From: a virus
Virus record (IMG/VR): IMGVR_UViG_3300032050_000289
Coordinates: 1 to 41,737 of that record
Reading direction: 5' to 3' (one strand)
Length of the DNA stretch: 41,737 bases
In this document: positions 2,907 through 20,500 of the stretch, in pieces
Layout of the letters: each line of letters begins with the position of its first letter
How positions within the stretch are numbered: the stretch's first letter is position 1
The notes under the pieces: generated by a model
Database searches by the model: none
The model's input: the letters and a program-made list of their open reading frames with translations, nothing else
Told to the model about the DNA's origin: nothing
Position numbers and translations under genes: made by a program

Positions 2907-2914
2907 TATTTATA
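2907..2914 (-). promoter_or_regulatory. Late promoter TATAAATA for gp18
   Basis: An exact T4 late consensus on the minus strand. It overlaps the stop codon of the Coq4-like gene and lies about 45 bases upstream of the sheath start, so gp18 can be transcribed independently of gp17 and the Coq4-like gene. Confidence 0.75.
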
Positions 2915-3623
2915 ACTTCAAAAAATTAGGAGATCTGTTAACAAAGGCTTTCGGTAAGCGGATGTTTAGTCTTTCCCTAGCAGAATCTAAATTTTCAGAT
3001 AGTAGTTTATCATAATCTTCGGCCAACAAAAACTTGGCTTTTTTACCATTTCGATATGCTTCGTATGCCATTCGAATCACGGTAAAATATTCTGAAGGCT
3101 TCTTCAAATGATTTATAATTGCGAACATGGCACTTAGACTGATTACTAACCAAGCGAGTGATCGAGTCTGTGCATAAGAAAACATGACCATGCACATCTC
3201 ACCTTCTGTACTCGTAGGATAACCTGATAGAATGTGCCATATGTCATGAGTATCACGATATCTTCTCGCCATCCAGCTATATGGATGCTTAGCCTCGATC
3301 CACTCATCATTAGTCTTTTTTCTTCGACTTACTTTTTGTACATTCTCTTGATGATGTCCAAAATAATTGTACGATTCTCTTCCGACAGATCCTTCTGGTC
3401 GCTCTGAAAGGAATGGCAAATATTCAGATATCTCTTCATTTTTATATGCCAGCTCTCCACCAGTTTTGGTTTCAAGCATCTTTTTGTATGTGTACTTCAG
3501 AGAAGGACCACTGCCATGCCTTACGACTTGTGCAATAAAAGGTAAAGCTTTGCCAGGATGCTGCAATGCAACCTTCATAGGCTTTATCATTTTTCTAATA
3601 TTTAAATCATATTCGTGCTTCAT
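2910..3623 (-). CDS. coq4: Coq4-like ubiquinone biosynthesis protein
   Basis: A 237-residue protein with the hallmarks of the Coq4 family. H126-D127-x-x-H130 followed after 11 residues by E142 is the HDxxHx11E metal-binding signature. The neighbouring YRDTHDIWHILSGY and SYAQT segments, and the tail GKKAKFLLAEDYDKLL...LNIRLP, are also Coq4-like. In eukaryotes Coq4 is needed for ubiquinone synthesis, holds the CoQ complex together, and has been linked to oxidative decarboxylation at ring C1; homologues occur in bacteria. The start chosen is ATG at 3623, one base after the terminase stop, with AAGGAA 9 bases upstream; a longer reading frame reaching 3725 would overlap terminase by about 100 bases. 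The gene sits between gp17 and gp18, which are adjacent in T4, so it is an insertion into the core late operon. Family assignment is strong; function in infection is inference. Confidence 0.88.
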   Translation of the reverse strand: MKHEYDLNIRKMIKPMKVALQHPGKALPFIAQVVRHGSGPSLKYTYKKMLETKTGGELAYKNEEISEYLPFLSERPEGSVGRESYNYFGHHQENVQKVSRRKKTNDEWIEAKHPYSWMARRYRDTHDIWHILSGYPTSTEGEMCMVMFSYAQTRSLAWLVISLSAMFAIINHLKKPSEYFTVIRMAYEAYRNGKKAKFLLAEDYDKLLSENLDSARERLNIRLPKAFVNRSPNFLKL

Positions 3624-3624
3624 A

Positions 3625-5298
3625 TCAAAAGTTTCCTTCGAAGAATCCCATCTTCTTGCTAACCCAGAAATCATCTTTCGGTCCACCTTCGAAGAGAGGT
3701 TCATTAACTTCTTCGTCATGTTCATCGTCTCCTGTACTCATCAGTCCAAATGGAAGCATCTGCTGCTCGAGCATCTTCTCATTCTGTTCGTAAATTTGCA
3801 TACGAATATCAACATTCGTAATTTCTTTGAGATAAGGCTGCGTAGTCAACCAAGCAAAGAGAACACAGCACATGGCCATGTCATCATTACCGTCTTCTGC
3901 TTCATATGACTGGTTGCCTTTCAAACTGTTCTTGAGTGAGAAGCGAGTCAACTCATAGATAGTGTCATAATCATAGATCAAAAACTTATCAGATTCGACG
4001 AGAGTCTTGAGTGTGGCACAACCGACTCGTTTCACCTGCTTCGTAGTCTTGACACCATAGTGAGTCGTCGTAGCAAAGCCACCTGATAGGCTTTGCCCTG
4101 TTCTGCCGTTATTTGCGGTGACGAGAACTCCATCATATTCAAGATCGTAGTGTAGGATATCGGCTACTTGCTGACCAATATCGTTCGTTTCGACAAGAAC
4201 AAGCGCATCGTTATATTTGATAGCCGCGTTATAGATGATGTTCGGATAGATCATTGGAGATATCAAGTTATTTCGATATGTGGCCACTTGTCGATAAGGC
4301 ATCGTAGATACATTGACGACAATGAAGGCAGAATAGTCAGCTCCAGCCCCTCGAGATGTATCAACTACGATAGCATAGATTGTATCTGGTTCTGGCTCTT
4401 CATAGATCTTAAGTCCACCGTCTGCTTGTGCAATCGGATGCTTATAGACCATGTTACGAAGTTTGGTAGGATGGATCAGAGTGTTCGAAGATCCAAGGAA
4501 CTCACACTCATATTCTTGTCTGAACTGTTCTTCAGACGTATTGCTGATCGTCTGTTCTTTCCATGCTTCGTCGCGGCCAGGAATCTGTGACCAGTGAACA
4601 TCGACACGAGCATAAGCATTTCTACCCTCTTCAGACTCTGTCCAAATGCGGTAAAACATGTTCATACCGTTCGGCGTCGAAGTCACGAGAACCTTCGAAC
4701 TTTGACCAGATGAAATGGTAGGATATACCGAAGCGAAGAACTCGTCTTGAATGTTGGTCGGAACGAAGGCAAACTCGTCGAGGTAAACCATGTTCTGAGA
4801 AGTACCACGAATAGCAGATGATGAGGTAGCCGAAGCAAGGATTTCAGATCCATTCTCGAGCTTAATGTTACCCTTATTCCATTCGGTAACACCCATTTGA
4901 AGCCACTTCGGAAGATGCTCGAACATCAACTGAATACGGCCAAGAATCTCTCGAGCCTGTCTGTCTTTGTTGGCCAGAATAGCGATAGAATACTCTTCGT
5001 TGAATACGATCTTCCAAAGCAAGTAAGCGGCAACCGTGGTTGTCTTACCAACCTGACGAGGCATCTTACAGATAACAAATCGATTGGCTTCGAAGGCGAG
5101 GATCATTTCCTTCTGGAATTCCCAGAGCGGAAACATGATCAGACCCCTATCGATGTTAACGATCTTACAATAAGTTAAGATAAAGTAGATCGGATCCTCA
5201 GAGCACTTAATGTACTCTGCGACTTGCTCGGGAGTATACTCGACCTTTGTATCTGCTCTCTTAAGTCTCGGATTACCGAGATAGTTTTCACTCGCCAT
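3625..5298 (-). CDS. gp17: Terminase large subunit gp17
   Basis: DNA-packaging motor: an N-terminal ATPase translocates DNA into the prohead and a C-terminal RNase H-fold nuclease cuts the concatemer. At 557 residues it is slightly shorter than T4 gp17 (610). Visible motifs are Walker A MPRQVGKTT (79-87), Walker B VYLDEFAF (171-178) with D174/E175, the coupling motif VTSTPNG (205-211), and nuclease acidic residues at D313 (VVDTSRGAGADYSAF), E370 (LVETNDIG) and D472/D473 (GNDDMAM). The start ATG at 5298 overlaps the end of gp16 by 11 bases, indicating translational coupling. Its stop is followed one base later by the Coq4-like start. Confidence 0.98.
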   Translation of the reverse strand: MASENYLGNPRLKRADTKVEYTPEQVAEYIKCSEDPIYFILTYCKIVNIDRGLIMFPLWEFQKEMILAFEANRFVICKMPRQVGKTTTVAAYLLWKIVFNEEYSIAILANKDRQAREILGRIQLMFEHLPKWLQMGVTEWNKGNIKLENGSEILASATSSSAIRGTSQNMVYLDEFAFVPTNIQDEFFASVYPTISSGQSSKVLVTSTPNGMNMFYRIWTESEEGRNAYARVDVHWSQIPGRDEAWKEQTISNTSEEQFRQEYECEFLGSSNTLIHPTKLRNMVYKHPIAQADGGLKIYEEPEPDTIYAIVVDTSRGAGADYSAFIVVNVSTMPYRQVATYRNNLISPMIYPNIIYNAAIKYNDALVLVETNDIGQQVADILHYDLEYDGVLVTANNGRTGQSLSGGFATTTHYGVKTTKQVKRVGCATLKTLVESDKFLIYDYDTIYELTRFSLKNSLKGNQSYEAEDGNDDMAMCCVLFAWLTTQPYLKEITNVDIRMQIYEQNEKMLEQQMLPFGLMSTGDDEHDEEVNEPLFEGGPKDDFWVSKKMGFFEGNF

Positions 5299-5677
5299 CT
5301 TTGTGCTGCTTCAGATATTTCTGTAATTCGGCCGTCGAACCTACGAAAAGATTGTTTGTGACTTGCTGAGGAGAAGCAGAAGGATCATCTTCCATGATCT
5401 TCTTCTTTTTGGCCTGAAGATCAACTAAGTCCTTGCTTGCTGCCACCATCGTATTCATCATGGTTGCCAAGACTTCATATGCTCGAGGGTGCTGGCTTTG
5501 TTTGGCCACATCCATCAAATCAAAGAGTGCTTCTTGACCCTTATTGATGACTTCCATCATGTTCTCGCGTGCATACTCAAAGTCAGCTGAGACTTGCGTA
5601 CTCATCTTCTTTTCGATCACAGTCGGTAAGTTATCGCCAGAGGCGATGTTTAAAAATTTATCAAGTTCATTGCTCAT
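5288..5677 (-). CDS. gp16: Terminase small subunit gp16
   Basis: A 129-residue small terminase, which forms a ring that recognises DNA and regulates gp17. It is a little shorter than T4 gp16 (164). The central helical region (ADFEYARENMMEVINKGQ, then LMDVAKQSQHPRAYEVLATM) matches the coiled-coil oligomerisation core of T4-type gp16; the AKQSQHPRA.EVL stretch is characteristic. The start ATG at 5677 overlaps the gp15 stop (TAATG) and the end overlaps gp17, so gp15-gp16-gp17 are translationally linked. Confidence 0.95.
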   Translation of the reverse strand: MSNELDKFLNIASGDNLPTVIEKKMSTQVSADFEYARENMMEVINKGQEALFDLMDVAKQSQHPRAYEVLATMMNTMVAASKDLVDLQAKKKKIMEDDPSASPQQVTNNLFVGSTAELQKYLKQHKDGE

Positions 5678-6507
5678 TAGATATTCTCAGTAATTGTATT
5701 AATAAAGCCATAGTCATCTGTACTTATAATTTCATCGTACGGAATGCTTGCTGCGGCATTACTTGTTGGTTGTCCGTTAGCAGTTAATCCTGGGCGAGCA
5801 GCCACAGTTACCGTGCTAGTAGTGTTAGTAGTGTTACCTGTCGTAACATCTTCAGGAAGTCTGAACGTTGTTTCTGCGAGTTTAATTAGTTTTGATTTCT
5901 TCGTAGGACCATATAACCAGCCCTTCATTGTAAAGCTGAGTGTCCAAATCAACGCTCTTCTTTGTTCGAAGCTGCCTTCGTATTGATCTTGAGAAGTAAT
6001 ACTATTCAGAATGATAGGAATATCACGTGCACTGTCTATCTCAGGAACAAGGTTGACACTGACTGTAAAGTCAGGAGTAAAGTAGGGCACGATTTGTTCT
6101 ACGATGCGTGTGCCATCTTCTGCGTTCTTAACTAAGATGTTCATCTCGAATTGCATGTCATATGGAACAGGCATATACTGATACTTGACTTCGTCGTCTG
6201 TGCCTGCAGTGGCAGATTGCTTTGTCAGCTTGTTGAGAGTATTCAGCTTACGAGTAGGATCATATTCTAAGGACGTCATCTCGAATGAGATGCGAGGCAA
6301 AACAACACCGGCCTGATTATCCATTTGAGGATTTTGCTCAAGTCTCGCTAAAACCTTATCCTTTGGACCATAAGTCAAAGGAACTTTCAGAGTCTGTCTT
6401 ATTTCTTCATTGTTATCGAGGCGATTGATATAGATGTCATTGAACACCGTACCAAATACGATGATATACTTTCTTAAGCTATCATGATTCCATGTTCTTC
6501 CAAACAT
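5677..6507 (-). CDS. gp15: Tail sheath stabiliser / tail completion gp15
   Basis: A 276-residue protein, close to T4 gp15 (272), which caps the tail tube and sheath and joins the tail to the neck. The N-terminus MFGRTWNHDSLRKYIIVFGT with following FNDIYINRL, KVPLTYGPKDK and LARLEQNP is the typical gp15 opening. A region around residue 150 (PDFTVSVN, then DIPIILNSI) is also conserved in the family. Both ends overlap neighbours by TAATG (gp14 stop/gp15 start; gp15 stop/gp16 start). Ala/Thr/Asn-rich sequence near the C-terminus (TTGNTTNTTSTVTVAARPG) is probably a flexible tail. Confidence 0.95.
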   Translation of the reverse strand: MFGRTWNHDSLRKYIIVFGTVFNDIYINRLDNNEEIRQTLKVPLTYGPKDKVLARLEQNPQMDNQAGVVLPRISFEMTSLEYDPTRKLNTLNKLTKQSATAGTDDEVKYQYMPVPYDMQFEMNILVKNAEDGTRIVEQIVPYFTPDFTVSVNLVPEIDSARDIPIILNSITSQDQYEGSFEQRRALIWTLSFTMKGWLYGPTKKSKLIKLAETTFRLPEDVTTGNTTNTTSTVTVAARPGLTANGQPTSNAAASIPYDEIISTDDYGFINTITENI

Positions 6508-7235
6508 TATACGTTACCTTCACTAAAAGGATCTATCTGCGTCCAGTCGAGAATACTGTCGCCTTCGACTTCGAACTCGGTATTGTCTTCGAATGGATCA
6601 CCAGCTTGTGTTTCGAAACTATAACCGCTTTGAATAATAGGAGTTCCATCTTGAGTGATAAGAATGAGTCCGTCAGAAGTGGTAATGTTGTATAGATCGA
6701 GGCTAAGGCTGAGATCTCTCTCGATGTTATCAATGGCAGCAATTCCAGTATTCAGTTCCTCGCCGCCATATTCGAACATTTCGCAGACAAGATCATACAT
6801 CTGAATCGATCCCATCTGATAGAAGACAGGAGTCTTATTGACATACTTGATGTACATCAGACGGTCGGCCATCGGAAGATAGATAAGATCGCCTTCTTGA
6901 GGACGATCGATCATCTCAAGGTTGCCGATTTCGTCCATAAAGTTACGAACAGATACTGTAAACGTTACCTGATCTCTGATTTCAAGACCGAATTTCGATA
7001 AGAACTGGCCGTCACCTTCATAGCTCTCATAGCTACGAATATACATGTCAATTAAATAATTATTGTTGTACTGTGATAATGAATCTTCTTCGTATACATC
7101 ATCTTTTGCAATCAGAGTTCGAGGACAATAATATACGTCGTGACCATACATCTTAATAGACTCAAGAACCAGATTCTCAATTAAGATCTGCTCTTGGCTA
7201 TTTGTAAAATTGTTGAAATAAAAGTTGGTCGACAT
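6507..7235 (-). CDS. gp14: Neck protein gp14
   Basis: A 242-residue head-completion/neck protein that, with gp13, closes the filled head and makes the tail docking site. T4 gp14 is 256 residues. Characteristic stretches are the N-terminal NFYFNNFTNSQEQILIENLV, then MYGHDVYYCPRT and the central RPQEGDLIYLPMADRLMYIK. Start ATG at 7235 is four bases downstream of the gp13 stop, and its own stop overlaps the gp15 start. Position and order match T4 exactly. Confidence 0.95.
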   Translation of the reverse strand: MSTNFYFNNFTNSQEQILIENLVLESIKMYGHDVYYCPRTLIAKDDVYEEDSLSQYNNNYLIDMYIRSYESYEGDGQFLSKFGLEIRDQVTFTVSVRNFMDEIGNLEMIDRPQEGDLIYLPMADRLMYIKYVNKTPVFYQMGSIQMYDLVCEMFEYGGEELNTGIAAIDNIERDLSLSLDLYNITTSDGLILITQDGTPIIQSGYSFETQAGDPFEDNTEFEVEGDSILDWTQIDPFSEGNV

Positions 7236-7238
7236 GTA

Positions 7239-7982
7239 TTATCCAATCATATCGAGAACCGGCAGAGAATAAGAAGAAATCATCTCGTCTTCGAGCTTTC
7301 TTCTTTCGGCTACGGCATCGTCGTAGATTTTCTCACCGTTAAATTGAACTCCTCCAGGTAAAGTCATGCCTGTAAACTTTGTAAGGTTGGAACCCCACTG
7401 TTCTTTGATCAGAGTTGTAGCATAGTTCTGAAGCCAACGATCGTTATAAGCATCTGTCCATGTTTCTGGATCGACTACTTCGTAGGCTTCAACGAGTAAG
7501 AATTCGCCGACAGCAACAGTGTTCCAGTCCATATCAACATAAAGACGATCTTTGTGACGAGAATAACGAATAGGCTGTTTACCGACAAGGAGTTCGTTCA
7601 TCAGAGCAAGGTGTTCCATGACCATATAGTATGGAACAAGCGACACGTTAGTCAGAGTGTAGAGGTCGTTCAAAGCGATCTGATAGCGAATGTTAAAGAG
7701 GTCGTCAGAGCGGATCGAAGGATCACCCATCGAGAAGATGCTGACCGCGCCGATGATATTTTCTGGAAGAGTGATATACTTGTTTGTTACGTCAGTTGAC
7801 GTGATAGCATGCTTGTAGTATACTCTTTCAGAACCATCAAAGTGATAGTCATACCAGTAACGAAGCGCTTCGTCAACACGATCATCGACTTGATCGTCGT
7901 CTACGTTGATTTCAATTACTGGCTTGCCTAACTTACGGAGACAGTATTCTTTGAACTCGGCTTTTGTAGTAGGAGTGGCCAT
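7239..7982 (-). CDS. gp13: Neck protein gp13
   Basis: A 247-residue head-completion protein. The N-terminal KAEFKEYCLRKLGKPVIEIN and DRVDEALRYWYDYHFDGSE segments are typical of T4-like gp13 (309 residues in T4). Together with gp14 it forms the neck ring between portal and tail. It is the first gene of the leftward gp13-gp19 run. Two late boxes (8001-8008 and 8016-8023) lie just upstream of the ATG at 7982, which has a GAGGGATTACATG context. Confidence 0.94.
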   Translation of the reverse strand: MATPTTKAEFKEYCLRKLGKPVIEINVDDDQVDDRVDEALRYWYDYHFDGSERVYYKHAITSTDVTNKYITLPENIIGAVSIFSMGDPSIRSDDLFNIRYQIALNDLYTLTNVSLVPYYMVMEHLALMNELLVGKQPIRYSRHKDRLYVDMDWNTVAVGEFLLVEAYEVVDPETWTDAYNDRWLQNYATTLIKEQWGSNLTKFTGMTLPGGVQFNGEKIYDDAVAERRKLEDEMISSYSLPVLDMIG

Positions 7983-8015: not shown

Positions 8016-8023
8016 TATTTATA
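8016..8023 (-). promoter_or_regulatory. Late promoter TATAAATA for the gp13-gp17 operon
   Basis: Exact late consensus on the minus strand, about 34 bases upstream of gp13. It forms one arm of a perfect inverted repeat with the plus-strand box at 8029-8036 (8-base arms, 5-base spacer AGCCG), so two promoters fire in opposite directions from one palindrome. Confidence 0.75.
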
Positions 8024-8028
8024 AGCCG

Positions 8029-8036
8029 TATAAATA
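8029..8036 (+). promoter_or_regulatory. Late promoter TATAAATA for the rightward gene pair
   Basis: Exact late consensus on the plus strand, 31 bases before the start of the gene at 8068. It is the only plus-strand late box I found and serves the only two plus-strand genes. Confidence 0.75.
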
Positions 8037-8067
8037 CAACCAGTACAATATGAGGACTTGAAATATT

Positions 8068-8619
8068 ATGAATTTAGACTTGATGATTATAGATAACTTC
8101 TATATCAATCCCGACGCAGTCAGAGCCTTTGCTCTTACACAAGACTTTAGCGTCACAGGTAACTACCCAGGAAAACGAACGCCTTCATTCTTGACACAAG
8201 ATGTCAAGGACTGCATTCAACATTGGATGAATCCAATTGGAAAGATTACCAATTGGCATGAAGATTCGGGTTACACTGGAGCCTTTCAATACGCAACATC
8301 TATGGATAGAACGTGGATCCACTGCGATCACACGAGTATGTGGGCTGGTGTATGCTATCTCACGCCTGATGCGCCGCATACTGCAGGCACAGGAATGTTT
8401 CGACACAAGGAAACTGGAGAGTATCGAGCTCCGAAAAACGAGCACGAGGCATACGACTATACCAAGTGGGATAAGATCGACATCGTAGGCAACAAATACA
8501 ATCGACTAGTTCTTTATAGCGGTGACCTCTTCCATGCCAGCTTAGATTACTTTGGTAAAGATTTATATGATGGTCGTCTGTTTCAGACATTCTTCTTTGA
8601 CACGGAGTATGCGCAATGA
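8068..8619 (+). CDS. 2OG-Fe(II) oxygenase-like protein
   Basis: A 183-residue protein with a plausible double-stranded beta-helix oxygenase layout: H85-x-D87 (IHCDH), a distal H156 in GDLFHASL, and R170 in YDGRLFQTFFF. This spacing matches the metal-binding His-x-Asp...His and the 2-oxoglutarate-binding Arg of Fe(II)/2OG dioxygenases; it also resembles a DUF6445-type family, but I am less sure of that name. Substrate unknown. ATG at 8068 follows a TGAGGACTTG stretch. Its stop overlaps the next start (ATGA), coupling it to the glycosyltransferase. It is one of three such oxygenases in 8-15.5 kb; the three are not obviously close to each other. Confidence 0.7.
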   Translation: MNLDLMIIDNFYINPDAVRAFALTQDFSVTGNYPGKRTPSFLTQDVKDCIQHWMNPIGKITNWHEDSGYTGAFQYATSMDRTWIHCDHTSMWAGVCYLTPDAPHTAGTGMFRHKETGEYRAPKNEHEAYDYTKWDKIDIVGNKYNRLVLYSGDLFHASLDYFGKDLYDGRLFQTFFFDTEYAQ

Positions 8620-9368
8620 AAGTTTGTAAGATTATATGGTCGACGAACCGTCTCGAGTATTTGATTCCTACGCTTAAATCTCAGCGTGATATGTTAAACT
8701 TCGAAGGTTGTCAAGTCGAAGGCATCTTTATCGATGATATGCCAAAAGGCCGGCATGACGGCACGATGTTCGAGCTAGCCAAGAATTTTGGCTTTACTGA
8801 GATCTACTTGCATCAGCAGAACATGGGTTTGCCATACGTATGGAATAGAACCTTCGAACTACTGAGAGAACGAGATTATGATTACGTGTATCTGTCAGAA
8901 GATGACGTGACATTCAATCATCCGATTCGAATGCTTGACATGACTCAGATCTTACATGACTATCGTAACGTTTCTCAGGTGTGTTTGACACGTCAGAAAT
9001 GGTATGACTTTGAAGAGGAAACACAGGCTTATGAAACAGACATTACACTTGGAAAATACCGCGGTGAACTTTCTGAGGCATATTTTTGGAGCTTGGCAAG
9101 TGTTTTTCCTCGCGCCATAGTAGATCTTCCTCATGCCGAATCAGTAGGCGAGAAGAACTTAAGCGAGTATGTCGTAGCAAAATCATTGCAGCAACTTGGT
9201 ATGCAGACATGTAAACTGAAGACCGAAGAAGGCCATAACATCGTTAATCATATTGGTGAGTATAGCATCGGTAAGAGAGCCGAGCCAGGAGATCCTCGCT
9301 ACGAAGACTTTGCAGCATACGATCCTGAAACCAAGTATAGCTCTCGTCATGGAACTAAGTGGACTTAA
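8616..9368 (+). CDS. Glycosyltransferase, family 2-like
   Basis: A 250-residue protein with a GT-A style nucleotide-sugar fold. The N-terminal KVCKIIWSTNRLEYLIPTL strand-helix is followed by IFIDD (residues 37-41), the QNMGLPYVWNRTF segment common in GT2 enzymes, and YDYVYLSEDDVTF with a DxD-like acidic cluster (E95-D96-D97) for metal and sugar-nucleotide binding. No membrane segment is seen, so it is likely cytoplasmic. The acceptor is unknown: host glycan, phage protein or DNA are all possible. It is translationally coupled to the upstream oxygenase-like gene and its 3' end overlaps the converging gene by 14 bases. Confidence 0.75.
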   Translation: MKVCKIIWSTNRLEYLIPTLKSQRDMLNFEGCQVEGIFIDDMPKGRHDGTMFELAKNFGFTEIYLHQQNMGLPYVWNRTFELLRERDYDYVYLSEDDVTFNHPIRMLDMTQILHDYRNVSQVCLTRQKWYDFEEETQAYETDITLGKYRGELSEAYFWSLASVFPRAIVDLPHAESVGEKNLSEYVVAKSLQQLGMQTCKLKTEEGHNIVNHIGEYSIGKRAEPGDPRYEDFAAYDPETKYSSRHGTKWT

Positions 9369-10621: not shown

Positions 10622-11169
10622 TACTTATATTCTACTGTGACATTTCTAAAACGCGGGCCATAAGTTGGAGATTCTATATCTTCTATGATTTCAAAATGTA
10701 ATCCTGCTCGCATTTTAATGTGGCGATAATGCATAGAATCGGCAACAATATTTCTATATAAAGTTTTAGTTGCTCCAATACTTGCATACCAATCGCTTCG
10801 AGCTTGTCTAAATTGTTCAGAAAACACCCAGTTTCGAGAACCGCTTGCATCGCGAGAACTCATAGAATGTCTACCATCAAAAATCCCGTCTGGAAGAACA
10901 AATCCTGCGACTAATCCTAGTTCGGTTCCTGTATCAAGGTCTACTTGTTTGGCGACAACATATCTGTCGTTTGGTCCGTGTGGATTTAAACCTGGCCATT
11001 CGTTGTTTAATCCACTAGTTATAGCAGCCACATATCCGGCCTTTTTTTCTTCATCTGTCATTATAGATGTAGATGGCCAATTTGCGTCGATTGCATCTTT
11101 GGATCTTTCATACAGATCATCAAAATCAACTTCTGATAAATCATTTATAGTGATTGTAACAAGATTCAT
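10621..11169 (-). CDS. Unrecognised protein, possibly acyltransferase-like
   Basis: A 182-residue protein I do not recognise with confidence. It has no membrane segment. The layout (a charged N-terminal helix, a central GLVAGFVLPDG strand, an aromatic WVFSEQFRQARSDWYASIG helix, then a YRHIKMRAGLHFEIIED segment) is weakly reminiscent of a GNAT-like fold, but the acetyl-CoA loop is not clear. It overlaps the desaturase stop (ATGA) upstream and the sulfotransferase start (TAATG) downstream, so it is an integral member of the enzyme cassette. A GATAAATA box lies about 38 bases upstream, inside the desaturase gene. Confidence 0.6.
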   Translation of the reverse strand: MNLVTITINDLSEVDFDDLYERSKDAIDANWPSTSIMTDEEKKAGYVAAITSGLNNEWPGLNPHGPNDRYVVAKQVDLDTGTELGLVAGFVLPDGIFDGRHSMSSRDASGSRNWVFSEQFRQARSDWYASIGATKTLYRNIVADSMHYRHIKMRAGLHFEIIEDIESPTYGPRFRNVTVEYK

Positions 11170-11879
11170 GTTTTAACTCTCTTTTTGGCTATTATATTTG
11201 CTACGGTATTTATCCAACCTTCATCTGATATATCATCGTGATGATTCTTATGCTTGTGCTCGGCGCCACTTACGATTCCATACCAGAATCCCATGTTCTT
11301 TGCTCCATTCTCATCGTGATTCATTGTAGATATTGCCGCCGACCATATCGATAGAGTACACGGAATAAGAAACAAAAACAAGAATGCTTCAGGCGATATG
11401 AGTAGCAATAGAAGTGGCAAAGATGCCACCAGCCAATACTTCTCAGAAAATAGATTGACTGTCTTATTTTTTCGAAGACGAATTACGGTTCGAAAATCTA
11501 CCCGATTGGTAATATTCCATAAAATAGGGAACATCGTTCTCCAGCCTTGCGTGCTGTGGCAATGAGGATCTTGCTCAGTGTCAGCATACTTATGATGATT
11601 GAAGTGTGTTATGCAAAAGTCTGCAGGTGGCATAAAGGATCCATAGAATCCGAGTGCGGTGCCGATAAACTCTACTGTTGGATGCACATCATGAGTGTGA
11701 TGACAAAGAATGCGATGATAGAATATCGAACCGCCTACGATTCTCATCAGAAAAAGCATGATCATAGCAACGGCTACCCATGCGAGTGTAGCATATTGCA
11801 AGAGTGCCCATAATACGATAAATGGACCTATCAGTTGGATAGTAGTAAGAACGTATCTTTTATCAAACTGTTGATCCAT
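11166..11879 (-). CDS. Fatty acid desaturase (membrane di-iron)
   Basis: A 237-residue membrane desaturase, which introduces a double bond into an acyl chain. The three histidine boxes are present: H55-x4-H60-H61 (HRILCHH), H92-x2-H95-H96 (HFNHHKY, followed by ADTEQDPH as in Delta9-type enzymes) and H210-x2-H213-H214 (HKNHH). Hydrophobic segments at about 11-47 and 148-180 would place it in the host inner membrane. It is shorter than most cellular Delta9 desaturases. I use ATG at 11879; an in-frame TTG at 11891 would add four residues. The start overlaps the end of the sulfotransferase-like gene, and ATGA joins it to the next gene. Redox partner not seen in this window. Confidence 0.9.
   Translation of the reverse strand: MDQQFDKRYVLTTIQLIGPFIVLWALLQYATLAWVAVAMIMLFLMRIVGGSIFYHRILCHHTHDVHPTVEFIGTALGFYGSFMPPADFCITHFNHHKYADTEQDPHCHSTQGWRTMFPILWNITNRVDFRTVIRLRKNKTVNLFSEKYWLVASLPLLLLLISPEAFLFLFLIPCTLSIWSAAISTMNHDENGAKNMGFWYGIVSGAEHKHKNHHDDISDEGWINTVANIIAKKRVKT
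11207..11214 (-). promoter_or_regulatory. Possible late promoter inside the desaturase gene
   Basis: GATAAATA on the minus strand, 38 bases before the gene starting at 11169. A variant box inside coding sequence, so it could be chance. Confidence 0.3.
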
Positions 11880-12396
11880 AATAGTCGTCAATCTCTTTTA
11901 TGATAGAATCTCTTCCGATATACGAATCGAGCAAGGGGGTTTTTGTTCCAGAGATGCCGTAGTAGTCTTCATACCATACCACTTCTTTCTCATATTTATT
12001 TAAATATGCTGTCAGAGCCTTATGATCATGGTGCATCAGAGCTAGATTAAACTTCAGTGCGGCTACTTTAATTCCTGGATATGCCTTCAACATATAGTTT
12101 GCCAAGCTAAGAGATGCATCTCTCATATTTTTACGGAGCATGAAAACACTTGCTTGATTAGCCAAAAGATATGAGTGCTGATTTACAAGTGCAATGTGTT
12201 CGCTATGATCATGTAAAAGTTCTGCGAAAGAATCCGAAGTAAAGTTAGTTTGATACTCTGTTTCGTGCGTCAAAGCTTTTCTATCACTTTGAATATGAAC
12301 AGGATGTAACTCTCCCACAAACTTAAGTTTTGTTTTTTCTTGAAAGTCTAAACAAAACTTTGTAGCTCCGCAGCGTGGGAGAGAACATACGATCAT
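11863..12396 (-). CDS. Short sulfotransferase-like P-loop protein
   Basis: A 177-residue protein. The N-terminal MIVCSLPRCGATKF resembles the phosphosulfate-binding loop of sulfotransferases (PRSGTT-like, here PRCGATK), and LRKNMRDASLSLANYM near residues 82-97 resembles the 3'-phosphate-binding arginine/serine helix. It is shorter than the sulfotransferase at 9917-10621 and lacks a clear catalytic-base motif, so it may be a reduced or diverged member. ATGA overlap with the GlcNAc-transferase-like gene upstream and a 17-base overlap with the desaturase downstream. Function beyond fold class is inference. Confidence 0.55.
   Translation of the reverse strand: MIVCSLPRCGATKFCLDFQEKTKLKFVGELHPVHIQSDRKALTHETEYQTNFTSDSFAELLHDHSEHIALVNQHSYLLANQASVFMLRKNMRDASLSLANYMLKAYPGIKVAALKFNLALMHHDHKALTAYLNKYEKEVVWYEDYYGISGTKTPLLDSYIGRDSIIKEIDDYYGSTV
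11993..12000 (-). promoter_or_regulatory. Possible late promoter upstream of desaturase
   Basis: AATAAATA on the minus strand, about 114 bases before the desaturase start and inside the upstream gene. Weak candidate because of the long leader and coding context. Confidence 0.22.
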
Positions 12397-15492: not shown

Positions 15493-17541
15493 TTATTCAA
15501 TAGTAATATCTATATATCCTCCAGGAGCCACAGTTACCGAATGCGATTGGCCATCAGGATAAGCATAGTAGCTCGCTATCTGGTTATTTATCACAGGTGC
15601 AGCCGTTCCTCCAGCATTTGAACCAGGGAAAGTAATACCAAGTGTATTTGACGGATTTCCTGGAACGGCTGGAGTTGGAGTATTAAAGTTCTGAGGTCCG
15701 CTGGTAGCAGGGTTAAAGTTCTGAGGTCCATTCGTTGCCGGATTAAAGTTTTGTGGACCATTAGTTGCAGGGTTAAAGTTCTGAGGACCATTGGTTGCAG
15801 GATTAAAGTTAGCAGGTCCATTCGCTACGTTAAAGTTCTGAGGACCATTCGCTACGTTAAAGTTCTGAGGACCGTTTGTAGCTGGGTTAAAGTTCTGAGG
15901 TCCATTAGTCGCTGGATTGAAATTCTGAGGGCCACCGACAGCTGGATTAAAGTTTTGTGGACCATTAGTAGCTGGATTGAAATTCTGCGGACCGCTAGTG
16001 GCAGGATTGAAATTCTGAGGCCCGTTAGTGGCAGGGTTAAAGTTTGCAGGACCATTGGCTACGTTGAAGTTTTGTGGACCGTTCGTTGGTGCATTAAAGT
16101 TTGCAGGACCATTGGCAACGTTAAAGTTCTGAGGTCCACCGGTTGGCGCATTGAAGTTTGCAGGGCCATTCGCAACGTTGAAGTTTTGTGGGCCATTTGT
16201 CGGTGCATTGAAGTTCGCAGGGCCATTGGCAACGTTGAAGTTTTGTGGACCGTTGGTAGCTGGGTTAAAGTTTTGTGGGCCATTTGTCGGTGCATTGAAG
16301 TTTGCAGGGCCATTAGTTGGCGCATTGAAGTTTGCAGGACCATTGGTTGCTGCATTGAAGTTTGCAGGACCATTGCTCGCTGCATTGAAGTTTGCAGGAC
16401 CATTAGTAGGCGAGTTAAAGTTAGAAGGACCTGCTGATGGAGAGTTAAAGTTCTGAGGACCACCAGACGGTGCATTGAAGCTTCCTGCAAAATATCCAAA
16501 TTTCGGATTAATAACCGCCGGATTAATTCGATTTCCGGGAACAGAGTTGTATGTGCCGGTGGCATTTCCAGGAATAACATTGCTTCCAGATACGTTGCCT
16601 GGATTTACGTTATAGCCTGACACGTTGCCTGGATTTACGTTATAGCCTGAAACGTTGCCTGGATTTACGTTATAGCCTGACACTGGACCCGGATTGATAT
16701 TGTAACTAGATATATTACCTGGAATTTTGTTAAAAGTTCCTGTACCATTACCTGGAACAATGTTAAATGCTCCTGTACCCGGAAAAACGATGTTATAGCC
16801 AGAGATGTTTCCAGGAACTTTGTTGAATGACCCTGTGCCTGGGAAAATGATGTTGTAGTTTGCCACAGGACCAGGGATGATATTGAAAGTACCTGTTCCA
16901 GGGAAAATGATGTTATAACCAGCTATGTTCCCTGGAACTTTGTTGAATGTACCAGTTCCTGGGAAAATGATATTGTAGCTGGCAATATTACCAGGAATAA
17001 TGTTAAATGTACCCGTGGCATTTCCTGGAACAATGTTGAAAGTGCCAGTAGCATTACCAGGAACGATGTTAAAGTTGCCAGTTGCATTGCCAGGAATGAT
17101 ATTAAAGTTGCCAGTTGCATTTCCTGGAACAATGTTGAAAGTGCCAGTAGCATTTCCTGGAACGATGTTGAATCCTCCGGTCTGCGGGAATATGATATTG
17201 AAATTGCCGGTCTGAGGAAAGATAATATTATAGTTGGCTATATTTCCAGGAACAATATTAAAAGTGCCAGTCGCATTGCCAGGAACGATATTAAAGTTTC
17301 CAGTCGCATTTCCTGGAATGATGTTGAATGTGCCAGTCGCATTGCCAGGAATGATGTTGAATGTGCCGGTTCCAGGACCAGGGATCAAAGCTGTGCCTGT
17401 GCCACCTCTACCAGAAACAAGAACACTATTTCTACCATAAGGAATCGTGATGTTACCAGGACTGTTGAACTTAGTTGTTCCAGTCCCGGCACCACGCCAT
17501 GTTTTCTCTAATGTAAACTTCGAACCACCACCAATACTCAT
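15493..17541 (-). CDS. Pro-Gly-Asn repeat fibre/adhesin-like protein
   Basis: A 682-residue protein made almost wholly of two tandem repeat families. After the N-terminal MSIGGGSKFTLEKTWRG, residues about 50-335 are about 11-residue units of the type NI(I/V)PGNATGTF, alternating with NIIFPGTGTF and YNVNPGNVSG forms, with more than 25 Pro-Gly dipeptides and many Asn-Ala-Thr triplets. Residues about 360-625 are about 27 copies of GP(Q/A)NFN(P/A/V)AT(N). A short non-repeat C-terminus follows. The composition suggests an extended beta-rich or polyproline-like surface fibre. The start ATG at 17541 overlaps the stop of the preceding fibre gene by one base (TAATG); a further in-frame extension to 17577 is unlikely. 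I do not recognise a named family. Confidence 0.72.
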   Translation of the reverse strand: MSIGGGSKFTLEKTWRGAGTGTTKFNSPGNITIPYGRNSVLVSGRGGTGTALIPGPGTGTFNIIPGNATGTFNIIPGNATGNFNIVPGNATGTFNIVPGNIANYNIIFPQTGNFNIIFPQTGGFNIVPGNATGTFNIVPGNATGNFNIIPGNATGNFNIVPGNATGTFNIVPGNATGTFNIIPGNIASYNIIFPGTGTFNKVPGNIAGYNIIFPGTGTFNIIPGPVANYNIIFPGTGSFNKVPGNISGYNIVFPGTGAFNIVPGNGTGTFNKIPGNISSYNINPGPVSGYNVNPGNVSGYNVNPGNVSGYNVNPGNVSGSNVIPGNATGTYNSVPGNRINPAVINPKFGYFAGSFNAPSGGPQNFNSPSAGPSNFNSPTNGPANFNAASNGPANFNAATNGPANFNAPTNGPANFNAPTNGPQNFNPATNGPQNFNVANGPANFNAPTNGPQNFNVANGPANFNAPTGGPQNFNVANGPANFNAPTNGPQNFNVANGPANFNPATNGPQNFNPATSGPQNFNPATNGPQNFNPAVGGPQNFNPATNGPQNFNPATNGPQNFNVANGPQNFNVANGPANFNPATNGPQNFNPATNGPQNFNPATNGPQNFNPATSGPQNFNTPTPAVPGNPSNTLGITFPGSNAGGTAAPVINNQIASYYAYPDGQSHSVTVAPGGYIDITIE
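15585..15592 (-). promoter_or_regulatory. Possible late promoter for the enzyme cassette
   Basis: GATAAATA on the minus strand, 115 bases before the oxygenase start at 15470 and inside the C-terminal coding part of the repeat protein. It would uncouple the enzymes from fibre transcription; weak evidence. Confidence 0.25.
15670..16465 (-). repeat. About 27 tandem 27-30 base coding repeats
   Basis: Encodes the GP(Q/A)NFN decapeptide family. Units are 10 residues, or 9 in the GPQNFNVAN form. Synonymous positions vary between copies, so the protein sequence is conserved more than the DNA. Confidence 0.9.
16535..17385 (-). repeat. Tandem Pro-Gly-Asn coding repeats
   Basis: Encodes units of about 11 residues (N-I/V-x-P-G-N-x-x-G-x-F/Y). 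A local triplication of YNVNPGNVSG at about 16580-16680 is nearly identical at DNA level, pointing to recent expansion. Confidence 0.85.
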
Positions 17542-20500
17542 TATGCGGCGCCCTTCACCGTCAGAGAAACAATCCAAGAAGTACCGCCGTCATAAGTCAT
17601 GAGTGACCATACGTCGATGGCGTTTGCGGTTGTTGTTGCAGGAGGAGCTACACCGCCAGGATATTTACTTCCTGTCGGCCAAGTGATCGTGCGACCACCG
17701 GTAGCATCTTGTTTTGCTACGATAGTTCCAGCCCACATTCTTGTGCTCGGAGGAACTCCTGTTGGAGAGATCGTTGTATTTCCAGTAAGCGTAAGATCCC
17801 AGAAGTTAGAAGCAACACAGTTAAGAGTATATGTTCCTGTGACAGCTGTATTTGAAACTTCAGATTCGGTATAACCTGTCAGCGTTGGATTCGTGATGTT
17901 GTTGTTGGCCATCACAAGGTTTGCTGACAGAGTAGTTAGTCCGCCAGTAACACTGAATGCTCCGTTCCATGTAAGAGCACCAGTTCCAGAACGTCCCAAT
18001 TTGATGTCATTGTTAGCATTGCCGAAAACAATGTATCCGTTGTTGGCACTCTGTTGACCCATGATGCGAACAGTATCGGCCTGATTAATATCGCCGAACC
18101 ATGCATCATCACCGATACCAATATTTGTTCCACCGCCATTATTGGCAGTAGTTACTCGATCGAAGCTACCGACGCTCGAAACACTAAGGTTTCCGGTAAT
18201 CGTAGTATTACCTGCGGCAAGCGTAGTGATACCAGAAGCGGCACCTGCAATTGTAAGCGATGATCCACCTTGAATTGCTCCAGATACGTTAGCATATCCA
18301 GATATCTTAAAGTTACCAGTACCACTCAGAGAAGCAACTTCTATGTCAGCTCCATACCATTTAAATTTAAAGCTATCTTCGTTAGTAGGAACAGTAGACC
18401 ACATTGTTGCCGGGCTAATACCCATAGCATAATCAGTTTGACTCACAGACAGAGCTGGATATAGTAATAGCTTAGTACCCGGGCTTCGTGTATTAATAGA
18501 AGGACCGTCAACACCGGCTGTCGACCAAGTGATGAAGTTTGATGTACCATTAGAAAGTGATAATCCACTTATAACGTTAGCAAAACCTGAGATGGTAGTA
18601 TTACCAGCCGCAAGAGTTGTGATACCGCTTACAGCTTGAGCAGCACTCGTCGATTGAATAGCAGTCGTGCCAAGATACAACGATGGGAGTCTAGCGAAAG
18701 GTAGAGTTCCAGTACTAATATTAGTCGCATTAGTATAGTATGCTGCATCTTGACCGCCAAGATTCGTCGAGTTGTTTGCAGTCAGAGCAGAGTTAGCATT
18801 GATCGCGCCTTCTGTCTTACCGAAAGCATTCGTGGCATTATTTGCTGTACCGGTAAACGACGTAGCATTAATACTTGAGAATACCGTAGAGTTGCCAGCC
18901 TTTAATAGATTAACCGTTAAATTGGCATATGAGAACGATGCATCAGCAATGTTGATCGTGTTGTTATTAGCAACAGCAGTCTCATCACCAAACGTCGACA
19001 TAAGAAGGAATTCTTTTGATGTCGGACTACGTACAAGACCAGCATGGTTTGTAGTATTACCAGATCCGTTATAGTGGAATGTAAATCCACCCCAATAAGT
19101 ATCACCGGGGTTATTCACACCTAGCTTGATCAGAGGATCCGACACAGAGAAAGATTCGATGTTAGTCGAAATCAGATTACCAGTTACGGTTAAGTTTCCA
19201 CCTACTGTAACAGAACCAGTAAACGAGCCGTTTGCAAAAGTCGGAGAATCAGAAGTTCTGAGATCCTGATTCATACGGTATGGAAGACGAGCTTCAGCAA
19301 GAGTACCATTGTTTGCATTCGAAGCATTCGCAGCAAAGATAGTCGCATTGGTATAAGCGGCTCCGGCATTGGCTACCATCGCAGTATTTGCAGTGCCGAT
19401 CTTCGTATCAGTGTAACTTACCGCATTGGTATAAGCTGCAGCTGCGTTAGCAGCCATTGCAGTGTTCGCGGTGCCAATTTTTGTATCAGTATAGCTGACT
19501 GCATTCGTATAAGCTGCTGCCGCGTTAGCAGCCATTGCGGTATTAGCTGTGCCGATCTTCGTGTCGGTATAAGATACAGCATTTGTGTAAGCAGCGCCAG
19601 CATTTGCTACCATCGCTGTATTAGCTGTGCCGATCTTCGTGTCGGTATAAGATACAGCATTTGTGTAAGCAGCGCCAGCATTTGCTACCATTGCTGTATT
19701 GGCAGTACCAATCTTTGTATCTACATAAGACACAGCATTACTATAAGCGGTAGCCGCATTTCCTGTAATAGCAGAATTGGCAGTACTGATTTTACCGTCT
19801 GTGTAAGAGACTGCGTTAGTGTAAGCTGCAGCGGCATTTGCAACCATGGCAGTATTTGCAGTACCGATCTTTGTGTCGGTATAAGATACGGCATTGGTAT
19901 AAGCCGAGCCAGCGGCAGTCAATGCAGTGTTAGCATTTGTGTTTGCCGTAATCGCTGCGTCATAAGCAGATTTGACTGAAGCGGCAGATGCAGCTGCAGT
20001 TGTCGATGTATTCGAGACCGAGTCGACAAGAACTACCGCACCGGCAACAGTTGAGTTGCCAGATGGAAGACGAGCTGAGTTAACTGTACCAGATGTCAGA
20101 TTAGTTGCATTGGAAGCGATCGCGATTGCATTCGTATAAGCAGCATCTGCGTTAGCGGCCATGGCAGTATTAGCAGTTGCAATCTTCGTATCTGTATATG
20201 ATACAGCATTCGAATATGCGGTCGCCGCATTGCCAGTGATAGCAGTGTTTGCAGTTCCAATTTTGGTGTCTGTATATGACACTGCGTTCGTGTATGCAGA
20301 TCCAGCGGCTGTTAACGCAGTGTTTGCATTTGTGTTAGCAACGATGGCAGCATCATAGGCGGTTTTTACAGCTGCAGCAGAAGCGGCTGCAGTTGTTGAA
20401 GTGTTCGCTATCGAATCGACAAGAATCACTGCGCCTGCAGTTGTCGAGTTACCAGATGGAAGTCTTGCTGCGTTGACAGTACCAGATGTGAGGTTGGTAG

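Follow-up and report, generated by a model that had tools for sequence, protein, structure and literature searches.

T4-type phages carry an authentic, selected and accessory Coq4, encoded between the large terminase gene gp17 and the tail sheath gene gp18. In the window, which is the whole 41,737-nucleotide stretch of viral DNA analyzed here (IMG/VR record IMGVR_UViG_3300032050_000289), the open reading frame at 2910–3623 on the minus strand is a real coq4-family gene of 237 amino acids, as seen from a PF05019 match, an AlphaFold model, and more than 40 IMG/VR loci. Chance is excluded by how well the protein scores against the family, by the invariance of its site, and by the way selection has acted on it. 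The sequence evidence inclines us, with slightly better than even confidence, to regard the product as a functional Coq4-type metalloenzyme, expressed late as an auxiliary metabolic gene and acting at the C1 step of ubiquinone synthesis.

Gene boundaries and late promoters

The coq4 gene begins at an ATG (3623–3621) one base past the gp17 stop codon TGA (3627–3625). An AAGGA Shine-Dalgarno motif (3634–3638, minus strand), read from the sequence, lies within the last gp17 codons and is kept in relatives. A mechanical list of open reading frames gives a longer frame of 271 amino acids that begins at 3725 within gp17; this start was rejected because relatives retain the 3623 start together with its Shine-Dalgarno motif.

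The neighbors of coq4, all on the minus strand, are structural and packaging genes. Upstream lie gp13 (head-tail adaptor; 7239–7982, phrog_211, E 7.6e-43), gp14 (head closure; 6507–7235, phrog_460, E 1.6e-69), gp15 (tail sheath stabilizer; 5677–6507, phrog_227, E 8e-86), gp16 (small terminase, TerS; 5288–5677, phrog_445, E 7.2e-37), and gp17 (large terminase, TerL; 3625–5298, phrog_2, E 1.6e-68). Gp18 (tail sheath; 253–2862, phrog_23, E 5.7e-113) follows, and its T4-type late promoter motif TATAAATA (2914–2907, minus strand) overlaps the coq4 stop codon, 45 nt before gp18. In syn9, a named phage, only 58 nt separate the adjacent genes gp17 and gp18. The initial annotation had described coq4 as coupled to the terminase stop, as carrying the gp18 late promoter at its own stop codon, and as lying between two genes that are adjacent in T4, and each of these placements holds.

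The motif TATAAATA occurs six times in the window against 2.0 expected. In the 128.8-kb contig G003, an open reading frame starts no more than 120 nt downstream of 11 of the 16 sites, against 7% expected (binomial p 6e-10), and by these counts TATAAATA is a true late-promoter-like signal here. Coq4 lacks an exact TATAAATA site of its own; the first one met upstream on the same strand (8016–8023, minus strand) precedes gp13, so we place coq4 as the last gene of a gp13-14-15-16-17-coq4 unit, in which it would be transcribed late. By position, coq4 thus lies downstream of TATAAATA and within the late cluster, like a T4-type late gene. A divergent late unit on the plus strand (8029–9368) has its own TATAAATA at 8029–8036; it contains a DUF6445/2OG-oxygenase-like gene and a weakly GT2-like gene and is conserved with the gp13–gp18 block.

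Family membership, metal site, and predicted fold

The sole Pfam family matched by the window protein is PF05019 (Coq4), with an E-value of 9.2e-21 and 74.6 bits against a cut-off of 22.9, and the alignment places residues 20–223 on profile positions 24–219 of 221. All 64 aligned phage and bacterial homologues match the same profile. The putative metal site, H126-D127-(x2)-H130-(x11)-E142, is encoded at 3198–3248 (minus strand). Its four residues are invariant in 17 diverse phage copies and in the 64 phage and bacterial proteins, though distant members of that alignment are only 30–52% identical overall. The window protein and its bacterial homologues also have in common the AEDYDKLL...RLNI block. 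A non-catalytic Coq4 that stabilizes or organizes the host's ubiquinone biosynthesis complex would follow the role proposed for yeast Coq4, which may help organize the biosynthetic complex (PMC11495197); such strict conservation of four metal ligands is not required of a pure scaffold, and we consider this role improbable.

An AlphaFold model built from the alignment of 64 phage and bacterial proteins is confident (pLDDT 87.3, pTM 0.86) and has the all-helical Coq4 fold; a model from the 17 phage sequences alone reached a pLDDT of 54.6 and was discarded. A Foldseek search of the PDB returned three significant chains (E below 0.001), all from Coq4-family proteins (3msq and 6e12 chains A and B), at moderate TM-scores (0.62–0.67 on the query). 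Both solved relatives are Nostoc Coq4-family proteins that phmmer also detects (3msq, 6e-8; 6e12, 1e-6). In 6e12 the protein is bound to oleic acid and magnesium, ligands in line with a lipid-binding and metal-binding fold. The profile and structure comparisons thus bear out the family assignment in the initial annotation, including the four ligands and the C-terminal AEDYDKLL block that it had named.

Searches of other collections returned little. OmpL37, the only match in NCBIfam and below threshold, was rejected as the identity of the window protein. PHROGs contains no family matching the window Coq4, the BFVD structure library gave no significant fold match, and the named phages of INPHARED include no Coq4 relative of the window protein; a weak INPHARED match (E 0.6) to the Coq4 of the second lineage described below was dismissed. 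No report of a phage Coq4 was found in the literature searched.

Relatives at the same locus and selection

Bases 80087–121823 of G003 (locus L001) match the window at 99.99% identity. A scan of IMG/VR yielded 43 loci in which coq4 comes immediately after gp17 in all cases and immediately before gp18 wherever the contig reaches it, so that the gp16-gp17-coq4-gp18 order, which includes the gp17-coq4-gp18 arrangement put forward as a check, is found in every spanning relative at this locus. Even a copy only 52% identical (L155) occupies the same position.

In pairs with dS below 1, coq4 has a median dN/dS of 0.14 and a maximum of 0.22; TerL has 0.017 over a comparable dS range. On these ratios coq4 is under purifying selection, looser than that on the terminase, and with its intact metal site it is not a relic, as had been argued from the window protein. 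In many pairs the coq4 dS exceeds that of TerL (for example, 1.98 versus 0.40 between L001 and L027), and this excess indicates that coq4 alleles are exchanged among phages.

Other open reading frames of these phages deserve mention. The window encodes a fatty acid desaturase-like protein (11166–11891, minus strand; PF00487, E 4.5e-8), whose gene may likewise concern membrane lipids. Elsewhere in G003, a complete beta-ketoacyl synthase gene with N- and C-terminal domains (L240:18656–19762) is unusual in phages. The open reading frame at L240:1353–3413, also in G003, is by its sequence the probable source of CHASE2 and adenylate/guanylate cyclase matches in a pooled Pfam scan, which suggests a phage-encoded membrane cyclase. 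Long tail-region open reading frames of the window contain internal direct repeats of 74–87% identity, offset by ~80–120 nt (15712–16431, 16987–17172, and 19344–19904).

Gain and loss of coq4

A TerL search found near relatives (TerL 92–96% identical) that lack an intact coq4 and keep gp17 and gp18. Their gp17–gp18 gap of 94–116 nt retains the final coq4 codons just before TATAAATA. Such scars are present in the gaps of L188–L201, L203, L205, L206, and L208, and at L210 both ends of a deleted coq4 copy remain, 150 bases after the gp17 stop. In the TerL tree the coq4-less loci fall among coq4-bearing ones, with L205 separate from the others, and coq4 was likely lost at least twice; the number is stated only as a lower bound because the tree is weakly supported in its interior, probably owing to recombination.

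Remoter relatives (TerL 81–87%) have neither coq4 nor a scar, and their TerL ends ...AEQKRNFLNL with its stop codon within the late promoter. In the coq4-bearing phages, TerL ends ...KRGFFEGNF or similar, and it is coq4 that ends ...SPNFLKL with its stop codon within the same late promoter. From these ends we infer that coq4 was inserted right at the 3′ terminus of gp17, capturing the old TerL tail and the gp18 promoter.

Because it was deleted repeatedly and left scars, coq4 is accessory and not an essential part of the virion. A virion component or head/tail assembly factor, a role that the initial annotation had entertained, would fit a late-operon gene flanked by gp17 and gp18; yet close relatives (TerL 94–96%) delete coq4 cleanly and retain both genes, coq4 is missing in other T4-type phages (INPHARED; syn9), in a second lineage it is located elsewhere, and the catalytic residues are conserved. 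We regard such a role as highly improbable. The repeated loss shows that any benefit is conditional at best. That the gene was gained once and lost repeatedly, and that its synonymous divergence, often above that of TerL, points to swapped alleles, would fit selfish or neutral cargo in an intergenic site that tolerates insertions, but a dN/dS near 0.14 and a site intact in every complete copy make cargo very unlikely.

Origin of the gene and probable hosts

The best cellular matches of the phage Coq4 proteins are from Sphingomonadales and Caulobacterales, at 35–42% identity. Phylogenetic analysis of 92 Coq4 proteins groups the phage sequences in one clade (support 100/99), nested in Sphingomonadales/Caulobacterales Coq4 on a long stem of 1.03 changes per site, whose exact sister the tree does not separate. 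In genome scans, patterns drawn from the phage proteins alone found nothing; a mixed alignment found 261 matches.

Three long contigs of coq4 phages (G003, G004, and G005) encode a permuted tmRNA of alphaproteobacterial type with the tags ANDNDSFADIRLAA, ANDNVAFALAA, and ANDNSTMDIALAA; in G003, where the tag is ANDNDSFADIRLAA, it lies at 56325–56690 (L242:16325–16690). ARAGORN detected no tRNA gene in G003. The nesting of Coq4 and the type of tmRNA together make Alphaproteobacteria the probable hosts, and the best explanation of the gene is capture from an alphaproteobacterium by T4-like, uncultured phages.

A second phage setting

Coq4 proteins of ~50% and ~39% identity occur at L065–L072 and L156–L163 in a cassette of a GT2 gene, coq4, and an unknown gene of ~207 codons (207 aa; L072:5265–10194, L065:5015–9923, and L163:4998–7201). 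These loci include a 150-kb and a 360-kb contig, and the cassette often has radical SAM (B12-type), QueC-like, and sulfotransferase-like genes as neighbors, possibly forming an uncharacterized biosynthetic pathway. G004, a T4-like phage by its TerL (51%), has its Coq4 far from gp17.

It is mainly this setting that keeps a substrate other than a quinone in serious consideration. A Coq4-fold metalloenzyme could act on another carboxylated aromatic compound or lipid, for example in modification of the envelope or of a small molecule, and not on ubiquinone precursors. Besides the conserved cassette of the sister lineage and its neighbors, the long stem of the phage clade, the occurrence of PF05019 proteins in catabolic clusters and in cyanobacteria, and, in our reading, a flavin monooxygenase-like gene adjoining the Cupriavidus relatives argue for it; against it, no cassette accompanies the window coq4, whose direct neighbors are just gp17 and gp18, and in the nearest cellular group, which has COQ7, UbiD is missing from many genomes, a combination that favors the ubiquinone pathway. 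We see in it a real but minor chance. A related and somewhat more doubtful proposal is that phages have evolved a Coq4 clade of their own that T4-like phages and larger ones have exchanged and that serves in two settings, by itself in the packaging/tail operon and within the GT2 cassette; its members would be a phage-specific, metal-dependent decarboxylase or hydroxylase acting on a lipid or aromatic compound other than a ubiquinone precursor.

A candidate role in ubiquinone synthesis

A COQ4 with the HDxxHx11E motif is the Zn-dependent C1 decarboxylase of the reconstituted animal pathway (PMC7615680), and in human cells COQ4 is reported to be an oxidative decarboxylase, according to a review (PMC11495197). 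Alphaproteobacteria can also perform the C1 step via UbiN, and Zymomonas has neither UbiD nor UbiN (PMC10626278).

Genomes with Coq4 of the type close to the phage proteins all encode COQ7 (10/10), hence the ubiquinone pathway is present in them. UbiD is missing from 11 of 22 such genomes; within these 22, a typical UbiD is present in most of those identified as Caulobacterales and Cupriavidus. Across the order to which Stakelama marina belongs, we surveyed 101 genomes and found both Coq4 and UbiD in 12, Coq4 only in 38, UbiD only in 35, and neither in 16, so that over all Coq4 types the two proteins tend not to occur together (p 9e-6, a value that overstates independence, the genomes being related). 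The Coq4 type closest to the phage proteins occurs without UbiD in 6/6 genomes. A distant type, present in 32 genomes, is likewise never accompanied by UbiD, and all 12 genomes with an intermediate type have UbiD. This pattern suits close Coq4 proteins filling the C1 step in sphingomonads, and suggests that the C1 decarboxylase missing from ubiquinone-making Sphingomonadales may be Coq4.

Because the close type joins UbiD in Caulobacterales and Cupriavidus and a further type is always found with UbiD, the presence of Coq4 cannot simply be equated with C1 decarboxylation. The argument that absence of UbiD alone proves the role of Coq4 was rejected, since UbiN exists and Caulobacterales have both proteins. 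PF05019 is functionally mixed, with members in P450/acyl-CoA dehydrogenase catabolic clusters and on cyanobacterial plasmids that are probably not ubiquinone enzymes. As paralogues do other things and UbiN offers an alternative, membership of PF05019 by itself is no proof of a quinone role.

Under the preferred reading of a C1-step enzyme, the gp13 promoter would drive late transcription of coq4 and translation would be coupled to that of gp17. The product would bind a divalent metal (Zn in the COQ4 studied) and, at the membrane, remove the C1 carboxyl of polyprenyl-4-hydroxybenzoate or swap it for a hydroxyl. The phage may lend this single step to the host's own pathway during virion building. 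A point against this reading is that the phages lack COQ7 and that Pfam scans of 48 early-region G003 proteins found no other ubiquinone gene. The gene has phage neighbors at all spanning loci, is intact and selected, nests among bacterial homologues, and is non-essential, as an auxiliary metabolic gene should be. The initial proposal of a late auxiliary metabolic gene is borne out in part: the family, the intact metal site, the fold, the gp17 coupling, and the late-operon placement are upheld, a ubiquinone role is plausible, and late expression is read from position and promoters.

If the enzyme does make ubiquinone, a viral gene would be acting directly on the electron carrier with which an aerobic alphaproteobacterium respires, and one could test whether the supply of quinone sets a limit to virion production. 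Phage Coq4 offers a small, fast-evolving, naturally gained-and-lost model of an enzyme whose reaction was only recently assigned. It also draws attention to Coq4 as a candidate substitute for UbiD in Sphingomonadales.

Comparison with known systems

Virus-borne ubiG, an auxiliary metabolic gene of Baltic Sea viruses (PMC9301287), is by analogy a precedent for quinone genes in phages. Like the candidate described here it belongs to the ubiquinone pathway, but it encodes a methyltransferase for a different step, and Coq4 is not reported there. The Coq4 proteins of Sphingomonadales and Caulobacterales (35–42% identity) resemble the phage proteins in fold, length, and HDxxHx11E site, and the alphaproteobacterial proteins have the RDxHDIWH and AEDY..LL..L..AR.RL blocks in common with them; the phage proteins differ in forming a separate long-stem clade, in lacking part of the N-terminal extension, and in being encoded within a phage structural operon. 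The only significant fold matches, Nostoc 3msq (Npun02000094) and 6e12 (Alr8543), are 18–20% identical cyanobacterial proteins of unproven function. Eukaryotic COQ4 (PMC7615680) is alike at the level of the HD-xx-H-x11-E metal motif and, unlike the putative phage enzyme, acts within a mitochondrial multi-enzyme complex.
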